Translations under genes and position numbers: made by a program
Part shown: in pieces, positions 1,453 through 5,889 of the stretch
Layout: each line of letters starts with the position of its first letter
Numbering within the stretch: position 1 is the stretch's first letter
Origin: an uncultured Clostridia bacterium
GTDB lineage: Bacteria > Bacillota > Clostridia > Christensenellales > Borkfalkiaceae
Assembly (NCBI GenBank): GCA_944354125.1
Contig: CALVPT010000011.1
Location: forward strand, 1-64,000
Reading direction: 5' to 3'
DNA length: 64,000 nt
The notes under the pieces: model-generated
What the model saw: only the letters and a program-made list of their open reading frames with translations
The model's database searches: none
Told to the model about the DNA's origin: nothing

Positions 1453-1503
1453 TTGACCGCGGCGGCGCGCTGTGATATAATTCCTACAACAAAGATAGGA
1501 AAT
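1453..1503 (+). promoter_or_regulatory. nadA promoter with Rrf2-type operator
   Basis: TTGACC at 1453-1458 and TATAAT at 1476-1481 are 17 bp apart, with an upstream TG making an extended -10. Overlapping the -10 and the start region is AATTCCTA (1479-1486), 9 bp, TAGGAAAT (1496-1503). The same dyad with the same spacing lies over the nifS promoter at 2926-2950. The right half-site (TAGGA) also sits where the nadA ribosome-binding site should be, so a bound repressor would cover both -10 and RBS. That the Rrf2 protein of 2494-2892 binds here is inference. Confidence 0.75.
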
Positions 1504-1511
1504 ATAGTATT

Positions 1512-2429
1512 ATGACGGTAAGACAGTTACAGGATAAAATTATGGCGCTCAAGGAGCAGACGGATACGTGCATTCTCGCGCACAGCTATATGTCGCAGGA
1601 CATATGCGATATCGCCGATTTCGTCGGCGACAGCTACGCGCTTTCGGTAAAGGCAAAGACGGCGCCCAACAAAAACGTAATCATGTGCGGCGTGCGCTTC
1701 ATGGCGGAGACGGTCAAAATGCTTTCGCCGCAAAAGCGTGTGCTCCTTGCCAACCCTACGGCAGGTTGCCCCATGGCGGAACAGATGGACAAGGAAGTGA
1801 TAGAGCAGGTCAAAAAGACGCTCCCCGGCTATGCGGTGGTGGCATACGTAAATACGACTACGGCGCTCAAGACCATTGCCGACGTATGCGTCACGTCCTC
1901 ATCGGCGGTCAAGATATGTAAGGCAATGCCCGAAAAGGACATCTTGTTCATACCCGACATCAACCTAGGCACATACGTCAAAAATCTCGTGCCCGAAAAG
2001 AACTTCAAGCTGCTTTCGGGCGGCTGTCCCACTCACGCGCGCATAGACGAGGAGGACGTGCTCGAGGCTAAGAAGGCTCATCCCGAAGCGCTCCTTCTGG
2101 TGCATCCAGAGTGCCGTCCGTCTGTCGTAAAGCACGCCGACTATGTCGGTTCGACCTCGGGCATAATGGACTTTGCAAAGAAGTCGGAGGCAAAGGAGTT
2201 CATAATAGGCACCGAAAATGCCATAGTCGAACATCTCCAGTTTGACTGTCCCGACAAGAAGTTCTATCCGCTTTCCAAGGACCTGGTATGCCATAACATG
2301 AAGGCGACGACGCTCGTCGACGTCTATAACTGCCTCACGGGCGAGGGCGGAGAGGAAATTGTCATGGACGAAGAGACACGCCTTGCCGCAGTCAGGTGCA
2401 TAGAGAAGATGATAGAGTACGGCGGTTGA
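1512..2429 (+). CDS. nadA: Quinolinate synthase A
   Basis: NadA condenses iminoaspartate with dihydroxyacetone phosphate to quinolinate, the precursor of NAD, using an oxygen-labile [4Fe-4S] cluster. The 305 residues match the compact clostridial/archaeal form. The three cluster cysteines are visible at C86 (NPTAGCPMAE), C201 (HPECRP) and C260 (LVCHNMK), with the repeated-domain motifs AHSYMSQDICDIADFVGDS near the N-terminus and GSTSGIMDFA later. The ATG at 1512 follows TAGGA at 1496-1500. No nadB or nadC is adjacent; the neighbours are an Rrf2 regulator and Fe-S assembly genes, so the gene appears to be regulated with Fe-S supply rather than grouped with its pathway. Confidence 0.95.
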   Translation: MTVRQLQDKIMALKEQTDTCILAHSYMSQDICDIADFVGDSYALSVKAKTAPNKNVIMCGVRFMAETVKMLSPQKRVLLANPTAGCPMAEQMDKEVIEQVKKTLPGYAVVAYVNTTTALKTIADVCVTSSSAVKICKAMPEKDILFIPDINLGTYVKNLVPEKNFKLLSGGCPTHARIDEEDVLEAKKAHPEALLLVHPECRPSVVKHADYVGSTSGIMDFAKKSEAKEFIIGTENAIVEHLQFDCPDKKFYPLSKDLVCHNMKATTLVDVYNCLTGEGGEEIVMDEETRLAAVRCIEKMIEYGG

Positions 2430-2493
2430 TTTTTCCGCTGTCCATATTATATACAGGTCGCCACGGGGCATTCCCGCGGCGGAGGAGTAAGTT

Positions 2494-2892
2494 ATGATGA
2501 TAACTACGAAGGGCAGGAATGCCCTTAAGGTAATGCTCGACCTTGCCCAGCACGACGACGGCAATCCCGTGTCGCTCACAGATATCGCCGAAAGGGTAAG
2601 GGAGTCGCAGAAATATCTCGAATCTACGGTGTCGCAACTGTCGCAGAAGGGACTCATCACGTCTACGCGCGGCAAGAGCGGCGGATATCGCCTTGCAAAA
2701 CCCGTAAAGGACTATACCATTGCCGAAATAATAACGGCGGCGGAGGGTTCGCTCGCGCCCGTTTCGTGCATCAGCGGCGAAATTACCTGCGAAAATGCCT
2801 GCAACTGCCTTACTTTGCCCCTTTGGAAGGAGCTCGACGAAGTCATTATGAACTTCCTTACTTCCAAAACTTTAGCAGATTTATTGAAATAA
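2494..2892 (+). CDS. Rrf2-family transcriptional regulator (IscR/CymR-like)
   Basis: This 132-residue protein is full length for the Rrf2 family. It has an N-terminal winged helix (MMITTKGRNALKVMLDLAQ, then SLTDIAERVRESQKYLESTVSQL and the wing KSGGYRLAKP), a dimerisation helix, and a cysteine cluster near residues 91-104 (CISGEITCENACNC) at the position where IscR binds its [2Fe-2S] cluster. The gene lies between nadA and nifS, 64 bp after nadA, with RBS GGAGGAG. Two ATGs in tandem (2494 and 2497) could start it. The cysteines and location support an Fe-S or cysteine-status sensor. The paired operators before nadA and nifS are its probable targets; CymR-type sensing of cysteine metabolism is the main alternative. 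Confidence 0.9.
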   Translation: MMITTKGRNALKVMLDLAQHDDGNPVSLTDIAERVRESQKYLESTVSQLSQKGLITSTRGKSGGYRLAKPVKDYTIAEIITAAEGSLAPVSCISGEITCENACNCLTLPLWKELDEVIMNFLTSKTLADLLK

Positions 2893-2925
2893 TCGCACAT
2901 TTTAAAAATTTTGTGCGCATAGCCT

Positions 2926-2962
2926 AATTCCTATTGACAAAATAGGAATTACTTTTTATAAT
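2926..2962 (+). promoter_or_regulatory. nifS promoter overlapped by Rrf2-type operator
   Basis: TTGACA (2934-2939) and TATAAT (2957-2962) are 17 bp apart. The -35 box lies inside an inverted repeat with 10-bp arms AATTCCTATT (2926-2935) and AATAGGAATT (2941-2950). A lone extra half-site, TAGGAATTA, is at 2981-2989 downstream of the start region. A repressor bound to the dyad would occlude the -35. The architecture matches the nadA operator, so the two promoters probably form one regulon. Confidence 0.8.
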
Positions 2963-3053: not shown

Positions 3054-4247
3054 ATGGTAAAGACGGTCTATGTCGACAACGCCGCGACTACGGCGATGAG
3101 CGATGAGGCAATAGCCGCAATGATGCCCTATTTAAAGGACAACTTTGGCAATCCTTCTTCCCTGCACACGGTAGGACAGAGGGCGAAGGAGGCGCTCGAG
3201 GGCGCACGCGCGAAGATAGCAAAGCTTCTGGGCGCGGACCCTAAGGAAATATATTTCACGTCCGGCGGCAGCGAGGCGGACAATCAGGCTTTGCGTTCGG
3301 CGGCATACGTCGGGCTTGCCAAGGGCAAAAAGCACATAATCACCACGGCATTCGAACATCACGCCGTGCTCCATACCTGCAAAAAGCTCGAAAAGGAGGG
3401 CTTCGAGGTCACCTATCTCGACGTGCATTCCAACGGGCTTATCTCGGCGGAGGAGGTCGAAAGGGCAATCCGTCCCGATACGGCGCTCGTTTCGATTATG
3501 TATGCCAATAACGAGGTCGGCACAATCGAGCCGATACGGGAAATAGGCGCTGTGTGCAGGGCGCACGGCGTAACCTTCCACTGCGACGCGGTGCAGGCGG
3601 TGGGGCATATCCCCGTGGACGTCGCCAAAGACAATATAGATATGTTGTCGCTGTCCGCGCATAAATTTCACGGTCCCAAGGGCGTGGGGCTGCTCTATTG
3701 CAGAAAGGGCGTCGTGCTCAAGAGTTTCATAGAGGGCGGCGCGCAGGAGCGCAACCGCAGGGCAGGCACAGAAAACATTGCAGGCATATGCGCCATGGCG
3801 GCGGCGCTTGAGACGGCGATAGCCCATATGCCCGAAAATATCAAAAAGGAAACCTATCTGAGGGACAAGCTGATTGCGGGACTTGCCAAAATTCCCCACA
3901 GCAAGCTCAACGGCGATGCAAAGGTGCGCCTTCCCGGCAACGTAAATATGTGTTTCGAGGGAATCGAGGGCGAAAGCCTGTTGCTTTTACTCGATGCAAA
4001 GGGCATATGCGCATCTTCGGGTTCGGCGTGCACGTCGGGCTCTCTCGACCCCTCTCACGTGCTTTTGGCGCTCGGTCTTCCCCACGAGGTGGCTCACGGC
4101 TCGTTAAGGCTCAGCCTCTCCGAGTACAACACCGAGGAAGAGATAGACTATATCATAGCCGAAGTACCCAAGGTGGTCGAATATCTCCGTTCCATTTCTC
4201 CCGTCTGGGAAGAGCTGGAAAAGGGCGAAAGACAGCATTTGATATAA
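3054..4247 (+). CDS. nifS: Cysteine desulfurase (IscS/NifS type)
   Basis: A PLP enzyme that takes sulphur from cysteine as a persulfide and passes it to Fe-S scaffolds and tRNA thiolases. The 397 residues show the fold-type-I signature: YVDNAATT at the N-terminus, TSGGSEADN, HCDAVQAVGHIP, PLP lysine K204 in SAHKFHGPKG, and the active cysteine C327 in ASSGSACTSG on the mobile loop (long-loop class I IscS/NifS). The ATG at 3054 is preceded by GGGAGTG. NifU starts 325 bp downstream after a set of palindromes, and a TtcA-like sulphur acceptor follows NifU, so NifS is the likely sulphur donor for both. Confidence 0.95.
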   Translation: MVKTVYVDNAATTAMSDEAIAAMMPYLKDNFGNPSSLHTVGQRAKEALEGARAKIAKLLGADPKEIYFTSGGSEADNQALRSAAYVGLAKGKKHIITTAFEHHAVLHTCKKLEKEGFEVTYLDVHSNGLISAEEVERAIRPDTALVSIMYANNEVGTIEPIREIGAVCRAHGVTFHCDAVQAVGHIPVDVAKDNIDMLSLSAHKFHGPKGVGLLYCRKGVVLKSFIEGGAQERNRRAGTENIAGICAMAAALETAIAHMPENIKKETYLRDKLIAGLAKIPHSKLNGDAKVRLPGNVNMCFEGIEGESLLLLLDAKGICASSGSACTSGSLDPSHVLLALGLPHEVAHGSLRLSLSEYNTEEEIDYIIAEVPKVVEYLRSISPVWEELEKGERQHLI

Positions 4248-4572: not shown

Positions 4573-5016
4573 ATGGCATTATACAGCGAAAAGGTAATGG
4601 ATCATTTCACCAATCCCAGAAACGTCGGCAAGCTTGACGATGCGGACGGAATAGGCGAAGTAGGCAACGCCAAGTGCGGCGATATAATGAAAATATACAT
4701 CAAGGTAAGGGACAACATCATAGTAGACGTAAAGTTCAACACCTTCGGGTGCGGCAGCGCTATCGCATCGTCCTCGATGGCTACCGAGATGATAAAGGGC
4801 AAGCCATTATCGCAGGCTCTTGAGCTTACCAACAAGGCGGTTGCAGAGGCGCTCGACGGTCTGCCCGCCCATAAGATGCACTGCTCCGTTCTGGCGGAAG
4901 AGGCAATCCGTGCGGCAATCAAGGACTACTACGACAAGCACGGCATAGAGTACGACCATTCTCAGTTCCCCGACACAGACGGCGAGGAAGAGCACGCCCA
5001 CGAAGAGCAGGAATAA
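4573..5016 (+). CDS. nifU: Fe-S cluster assembly scaffold NifU/IscU
   Basis: Scaffold on which NifS-derived sulphur and iron are assembled into clusters. The 147 residues form a single IscU domain with the three ligand cysteines C35 (NAKCGD), C60 (FGCGSAIASSS) and C104 (MHCSVLAEEA), plus the conserved Asp D37. There is no C-terminal NFU or central ferredoxin domain, so it is the short NifU form used with clostridial NifS. The last 20 residues are rich in Glu, Asp and His, which could bind metal but is not a known motif. An AGAGG ribosome-binding site precedes the ATG. Only 9 bp separates it from the next gene. Confidence 0.93.
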   Translation: MALYSEKVMDHFTNPRNVGKLDDADGIGEVGNAKCGDIMKIYIKVRDNIIVDVKFNTFGCGSAIASSSMATEMIKGKPLSQALELTNKAVAEALDGLPAHKMHCSVLAEEAIRAAIKDYYDKHGIEYDHSQFPDTDGEEEHAHEEQE

Positions 5017-5025
5017 CGGCTTTTT

Positions 5026-5889
5026 ATGGCTAAGGAGCTCAGCGAATGCGCGCTCATAGAGCGCAGTATAATTACCAAGTTCCGCAAAGGCATATGGACA
5101 AAGTTTTTGCAGGCGGTAAAGCAGTATAAGCTCATAGAGGAGGGCGACAAAATCGCCGTCTGCATATCGGGCGGCAAGGACTCCATGCTGCTTGCAAAGT
5201 GCGTGCAGGAGCTTCTGCGCCACTCGGATATAACCTTTTCTGCGGAATACATCGTCATGAACCCCGGCTATAACGGCGAAAATGCCGCCCTCATAGAGGA
5301 AAATCTTAAGAGGTTGGAAATTCCAGCAAAGATATTTCAATCGGACATCTTCGAGGTCAACGAGGAGATAGGCGGAGAGCATCCGTGTTATCTGTGCGCG
5401 CGCATGCGCAGGGGCTTTCTGTATGCACGCGCAAAGGAGCTCGGCTGCAATAAAATCGCGCTCGGACACCACAAGTCGGATGTCATCGAGACGACGCTCA
5501 TGGGCATGCTGTTCGGCGGACAGATTCAGGGCATGATGCCCAAGATAAGGAGCGCGAATTTCGAGGGCATGGAGCTCATCCGTCCCATGTATTGCGTGTC
5601 CGAGGACGACATCCTGCACTGGAAGGAGTACAATAATTTAAGGTTCATAGCGTGCGCGTGCAAGCTTACGGAAAATCTGCCGCAGGGCGTGCAGGGGCAG
5701 TCCGGAAGGCAGGACGTAAAACAGCTCATAAAGGCTTTCCGCAGCCGCAACCCGGACGTGGACGCCAGCATATTCAAGAGCCTGCACAACGTCCAGCTCG
5801 ATACCCTTCCCGAATTCAAATATAAGGGCAAGACCTTTTCGTTCAACGAAAAGTATGAAAGGGGAGTAGATATAACTTTCAGGGACTAA
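5026..5889 (+). CDS. TtcA/TilS-family ATP pyrophosphatase (tRNA 2-thiolation enzyme, probable)
   Basis: An adenylating PP-loop enzyme: the loop SGGKDS is at residues 48-53. Cysteine pairs C121/C124 (CYLC) and C210/C212 (CAC) are placed like the cluster and thiolation cysteines of the TtcA group, whose members make 2-thiocytidine-32 in tRNA using a [4Fe-4S] cluster. The GHHKSDVIETTLMGMLFGG stretch is typical of this family. Length is 287 residues. It sits 9 bp after nifU, downstream of nifS, which fits a sulphur-accepting Fe-S enzyme. The exact tRNA position modified is inferred from the family; other TtcA-like enzymes of Firmicutes have unproven substrates. Confidence 0.85.
   Translation: MAKELSECALIERSIITKFRKGIWTKFLQAVKQYKLIEEGDKIAVCISGGKDSMLLAKCVQELLRHSDITFSAEYIVMNPGYNGENAALIEENLKRLEIPAKIFQSDIFEVNEEIGGEHPCYLCARMRRGFLYARAKELGCNKIALGHHKSDVIETTLMGMLFGGQIQGMMPKIRSANFEGMELIRPMYCVSEDDILHWKEYNNLRFIACACKLTENLPQGVQGQSGRQDVKQLIKAFRSRNPDVDASIFKSLHNVQLDTLPEFKYKGKTFSFNEKYERGVDITFRD

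Follow-up and report, generated by a model that had tools for sequence, protein, structure and literature searches.

Which genes does the Rrf2-family regulator encoded between nadA and nifS control, and to what signal does it respond? The question is raised by a 25-bp dyad, AATTCCTA-N9-TAGGAA(A/T)T, which a pattern search of the window (the whole stretch of DNA analysed, 64,000 nucleotides) found at 1479-1503 and again at 2926-2950. An earlier note had described these two copies and placed an Rrf2 gene between them, and both statements hold: the dyads are exact and lie on the nadA -10 and around the nifS -35, and the Rrf2 gene occupies 2494-2892. The features of the locus are as follows.

1453-1481, + strand: nadA promoter read from the sequence (TTGACC 1453-1458, 17-bp spacer, TATAAT 1476-1481)
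1479-1503, no strand assigned: putative nadA operator, over the -10 and the transcription start, with the ATG 8 bp downstream
1512-2429, + strand: nadA, quinolinate synthase (PF02445; NCBIfam NadA equivalogs above cut-off)
2494-2892, + strand: Rrf2-family regulator, IscR-like (PF02082, TIGR00738; C92, C99 and C105, plus C103, and E43)
2926-2950, no strand assigned: putative nifS operator, a perfect palindrome, with the -35 TTGACA 2934-2939 in the dyad spacer
2964-2988, no strand assigned: second, weaker copy of the putative nifS operator (2 mismatches), directly behind the nifS -10 and 38 bp from the first
3054-4247, + strand: nifS, cysteine desulfurase (TIGR03402 FeS_nifS above cut-off)
4573-5016, + strand: gene for a nifU-type Fe-S scaffold (TIGR03419 NifU_clost above cut-off)
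5026-5889, + strand: gene for a TtcA-like PP-loop protein (PF01171; 197 bits with the TtcA model, below its cut-off of 272)

The two operators and their target genes

The dyad before nadA is one base off a palindrome (GGAAAT for GGAATT). At nifS, the promoter as read from the sequence consists of TTGACA 2934-2939 and TATAAT 2957-2962 separated by 17 bp, and the tandem pair of operator copies at 2926-2950 and 2964-2988 has counterparts in many relatives. Judged from their positions in the sequence, these operators would fit repression of both genes. The nifS operon probably ends with the ttcA-like gene. Near the contig start, at 226-1155 of the window, the match of an ORF covers just a part of the N-terminal domain of glycoside hydrolase family 3, and the ORF is possibly a truncated or misassembled gene.

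The pairing of nadA with nifS had been called unusual on the ground that nadB and nadC are absent. At the level of the genome this is wrong, as both genes are present at C2:120464-122623, and the ground for the argument falls. The pairing is in fact a logical one because NadA, which from its family we take to be a [4Fe-4S] enzyme, itself depends on Fe-S chemistry. The products of nadB and nadC need no cluster. Since no dyad was found upstream of nadB/nadC, the operator picks from the pathway only nadA, the gene for its Fe-S enzyme.

Within the window, six strand-matches to the dyad were found at up to 3 mismatches where 0.85 were expected; 100 shuffles all gave fewer than six. The earlier note had proposed a search of the whole genome for the dyad, with a listing of the genes behind it. 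In the 1.77-Mb genome, which is 97% complete, this search returned exactly three perfect copies, one each upstream of nadA, nifS and copA (the last at C4:114648). All three are in promoters, and the result establishes that the dyad is non-random. When up to 3 mismatches were allowed, the genome-wide count for the dyad (13/15) was lower than that for a backwards-pattern control (26/27), so weak matches are uninformative alone and only near-perfect sites count. The other 2-3-mismatch matches in this genome are mostly intragenic. In the genus, Candidatus Coproplasma, whose members here are uncultured gut bacteria, 61 genomes gave a summed total of 104 dyads at up to 1 mismatch against 1 control match.

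As a further measure, we determined how often the dyad stands upstream of individual genes in the relatives. It was present in 85 of 91 nifS upstreams (up to 1 mismatch), in 46 of 53 copA upstreams (up to 2 mismatches) and in 20 of 39 nadA upstreams (up to 3 mismatches), that is, in about half of the relatives for nadA, and it was found in none of the 84 nifU and none of the 16 ttcA upstreams; this set was in part collected via the dyad, and the unbiased figures for copA are 26/30 and 12/17. Shuffled upstreams gave no dyad at up to 2 mismatches. In two genomes (L060 and L069), nifS and nadA are divergent and have one common dyad.

That the dyads are chance matches, or reflect mere conservation of promoters, is scarcely credible. 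It is true that matches with 3 mismatches at other places in the genome resemble chance hits, most of them lying in genes, but a chance origin of the dyads is contradicted by the three exact copies in the genome, by the count of 104 to 1 across the genus and by the nifU and ttcA upstreams, which have no dyad. Conservation of the promoter is countered by the dyads that are kept where they no longer lie on the -35.

Three weaker matches were considered individually. The intergenic 3-mismatch match at C9:78616 (L015:4617-4641), flanked by an mcsA-like gene and one resembling a NifU-fold Fe-S scaffold, recurs in just 1 of 27 relatives and was rejected as a member of the regulon. A 1-mismatch dyad in G040:C11 lies inside rnpA and was set aside as probably due to chance. 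The poorly symmetric 3-mismatch match at L017:4908-4932 (G000:C3:105907) is followed after 24 bp by genes for an ArsR-like protein and a second heavy-metal P-type ATPase, and it is probably a chance match too.

copA as a third target

The copA site, which is absent from the earlier note, is a more surprising target than the nadA-nifS pair. The exact dyad at C4:114648 lies 46 bp upstream of copA and on its -35, the promoter being formed by a TTGACA within the dyad spacer and a TATAAT 17 bp further. CopA is a copper-translocating Cu(I) P-type ATPase of 840 residues with two HMA domains, one N-terminal and one C-terminal, and it scores 578 bits with TIGR01511, whose cut-off is 397. To keep the sample unbiased, we retrieved copA homologues within the genus by protein similarity alone. 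A dyad with up to 2 mismatches was found close upstream in 26 of 30 of these homologues and then in 12 of 17 more, two of those without a dyad being cut by contig ends. In seven close relatives, the dyad with the promoter is the sole conserved block before copA. Depending on the species, the copA dyad is located before the -35, on the -35 or behind the -10; this shift in position argues that the operator is conserved in its own right, and all of these positions would fit a repressor acting by steric hindrance.

At L056, L058, L110, L113 and L124, copA is separated from its usual upstream neighbour by an hxlR-type gene, often accompanied by a nitroreductase-like gene, and in three of these loci the dyad-promoter is retained, facing copA across the insert. 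The dyads of G097 and G122 were considered as orphaned or terminator-like elements, a reading that was rejected as they carry a TTGACA-17-TATAAT promoter that faces copA across an inserted hxlR-type gene.

Profile searches of this genome found neither CsoR (PF02583) nor CopY (TIGR02698), and CsoR is present in 6 of the 61 genomes of the genus and was not found in the other 55. In G064, G155, G164 and G178, csoR lies beside a divergent copA (46-47% identical), and no dyad was found near these csoR-copA pairs; two of the four (G064 and G178) retain the dyad before nifS. The mutual exclusion of CsoR and a dyad at copA is not strict, because in G082 and G162 a CsoR-family gene coexists with a dyad at copA. 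Outside Candidatus Coproplasma, CsoR occurs in 17 of 18 sampled genomes of a genus designated g9, where the observed dyads precede nifS only. In a further genus, g2, the dyad precedes rrf2, which is followed by nifS, as well as a glycerophosphodiesterase (GDPD)-copA operon (L084-L091). The Rrf2 protein of g2 has about 30% identity to the present one and carries a CCC motif, and this genus possibly reached the same wiring separately.

An ArsR/SmtB-family gene is located behind copA in 29 of 30 loci (for example L013:1642-1986, - strand), and this constancy, with 81-96% identity among the others, is what would be said for a different arrangement in which copA is truly governed by the ArsR-family protein and the dyad is secondary. 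The arsR-type gene, however, is preceded by a separate promoter and by an inverted repeat that is conserved before this gene only, while the conserved elements before copA are just the dyad and the promoter. We therefore consider control of copA by the ArsR-family protein very unlikely.

The Rrf2 regulator and its signal

The candidate for binding the operator is the Rrf2 protein of the locus, as no other full-length Rrf2 gene was found in this genome. It belongs to the Rrf2 superfamily (126.6 bits with PF02082; 131.7 bits with TIGR00738 for a cut-off of 73.3) and misses the NCBIfam equivalog cut-offs both for IscR (119.4 versus 207.55 bits) and for CymR (91.9 versus 195 bits). In E. coli IscR, the cluster is held by C92, C98, C104 and His107. 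An alignment of 40 Rrf2 proteins revealed that C92, C99, C105 and E43 are invariant, the three cysteines corresponding to the three cysteine ligands of IscR, and the cysteine pattern is found in all 44 genus-level Rrf2 proteins. The fourth ligand, His107, is replaced with Leu or Phe in all 44, and this position is also variable in other clostridial members. An extra cysteine, C103, is present in this and some other members and is not conserved.

In the IscR-hyA complex, E43 contacts the C at -8 from the centre (PMC9338935), and the -8 base of the present dyad is the first C of its CC. An AlphaFold model of the Rrf2 protein (pLDDT 93) shows the winged-helix fold of the superfamily and matches CymR, IscR, RsrR and NsrR, with CymR as the best match by E-value. 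As with IscR, an operator stands at the adjacent Fe-S assembly operon, in the form of the perfect dyad on the nifS promoter, and none of the genes of cysteine synthesis or uptake that would mark a CymR was found behind the exact dyads in this genome. From these sequence features we infer that the protein is IscR-like in its working, yet it is not filed as IscR. The proposal that an Fe-S- or cysteine-sensing Rrf2 protein controls both nadA and nifS is thus supported with respect to the regulator, by the operator common to the two genes, by the single full-length Rrf2 gene, by its IscR-like character and by its three cluster-ligand cysteines; with respect to the signal, Fe-S is favoured over cysteine.

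The same operator is found in other Clostridia and in Selenomonadales, before nifS, rrf2-nifS-nifU, cysK-like and metY-like genes, which identifies it as an operator of IscR/CymR type. For this known class nifS is an ordinary target, to which nadA and copA are added. The dyad-promoters before metY-like or cysK-like genes were seen in Intestinibacter, Lachnospiraceae and Selenomonadales (L155, L156, L178, L207, L225 and L254; L188, L193, L230 and L243). A search of the literature (open-licence papers) found no description of an Rrf2 protein controlling copA or nadA.

That other Clostridia have this operator at cysK-like and metY-like genes also bears on a CymR-like signal, with a CysK-like partner or a thiol switch relaying the supply of cysteine or thiols, in which case low cysteine would derepress nifS, nadA and copA. 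The motifs of IscR and CymR are alike (PMC3828012), CymR is the best fold match by E-value, and in C. perfringens cysteine limitation induces the rrf2-iscS-iscU-trmU operon (PMC2940859). We regard a cysteine signal as rather unlikely nonetheless, because CymR of B. subtilis binds no cluster (PMC9338935) whereas the IscR triad is conserved in every genus-level protein, no cysteine-synthesis gene of this genome has a dyad, the IscR model outscores the CymR model, and neither copA nor nadA is a cysteine gene.

Alternatively, the protein might be a sensor evolved from IscR that reads Cu(I) directly on its cysteine cluster, with nifSU and nadA as repair genes. The targeting of copA in a genome where CsoR and CopY are missing would agree with this, as would the extra C103 in this and some other members and the divergent, CCC-containing Rrf2 of genus g2, where the dyad also precedes a copA operon. 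However, C103 is not conserved, the Rrf2 gene and the nifS site are kept in G064 and G178, whose copA is run by csoR, and in genus g9 the dyad stands at nifS only. Because the regulator and the nifS site are kept in these genomes, the core duty of the protein appears to lie with Fe-S, and we hold direct sensing of Cu(I) to be unlikely. A broader proposition is that the IscR-like repressor acts as the copper sensor for most of the genus, with Cu(I) read either on the cysteines or via the cluster and with no need for CsoR or CopY, and that a second genus may have the same wiring separately; this is speculative, and we give it a modest chance.

Known systems and a proposed mechanism

The Gram-positive IscR (Thermincola potens, PDB 4CIC) and the clostridial rrf2-iscS-iscU systems have in common with the present one the Rrf2 fold, the cysteine triad, E43, the nifS/nifU neighbourhood and the operator at the nifS promoter. 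In contrast to these, copA and nadA are extra targets here and the His ligand is changed to Leu/Phe; in comparison with clostridial rrf2-iscS-iscU, rrf2 is located upstream of the nifS operator, so that the operator is not before rrf2. CymR of Bacillus and Staphylococcus is similar in fold (PDB 2Y75) and operator class, given the dyads at cysK/metY in other Clostridia, but CymR has no cluster cysteines and serves cysteine metabolism, whereas the present protein retains the triad and no dyad stands before a cysteine-synthesis gene in this genome. With CsoR and CopY of Firmicutes, the likeness is that of a repressor over a copA-type Cu(I) exporter; neither family, however, is found in this genome, the operator is of Rrf2 type, and relatives with a csoR-copA pair have no dyad there.

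In B. subtilis, nadBCA and the divergent nifS are under the control of NadR/YrxA, which responds to nicotinate and acts on the whole pathway. There too NAD synthesis and a NifS desulfurase are co-controlled, because NadA needs a cluster, whereas here the operator is of Rrf2 type and takes in nadA only. CopR of Pyrococcus furiosus, through which copper excess induces both copper export and Fe-S assembly proteins (PMC7830388), is a copper sensor of another family, while the present wiring appears to begin at an Fe-S regulator.

We propose, as the probable explanation, that an Fe-S-sensing, IscR-like repressor derepresses cluster assembly, NadA and copper export upon cluster failure. An Rrf2 dimer with an Fe-S cluster on C92/C99/C105 would bind AATTCCTA-N9-TAGGAATT and block RNA polymerase at nifS, which would take nifU and probably the ttcA-like gene with it, at nadA and at the unlinked copA. 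Loss of the cluster, caused by a shortage of iron or cysteine, by oxidants or by Cu(I), would make Rrf2 leave the DNA, and upon its release more clusters would be built, NadA would be replaced and copper would be pumped out. The integrity of the cluster would then take the place of a dedicated copper sensor in a genus that is mostly without CsoR. For the release by copper, we draw on the finding that copper destroys Fe-S proteins and blocks cluster assembly (PMC7830388). Weighing against the mechanism are the replaced His ligand, the missed IscR and CymR cut-offs, the ArsR-family gene behind copA, the two genomes (G082 and G162) with both CsoR and the dyad, the roughly half of nadA genes without a site and the cysteine genes that elsewhere are under the same class of operator.

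Copper export is normally under the control of dedicated copper sensors. If the proposed mechanism is true, the export of copper would be triggered by damage to its targets and not by the metal itself, with cluster damage serving as the copper alarm, and the regulon is small and clean, which makes this idea directly testable.
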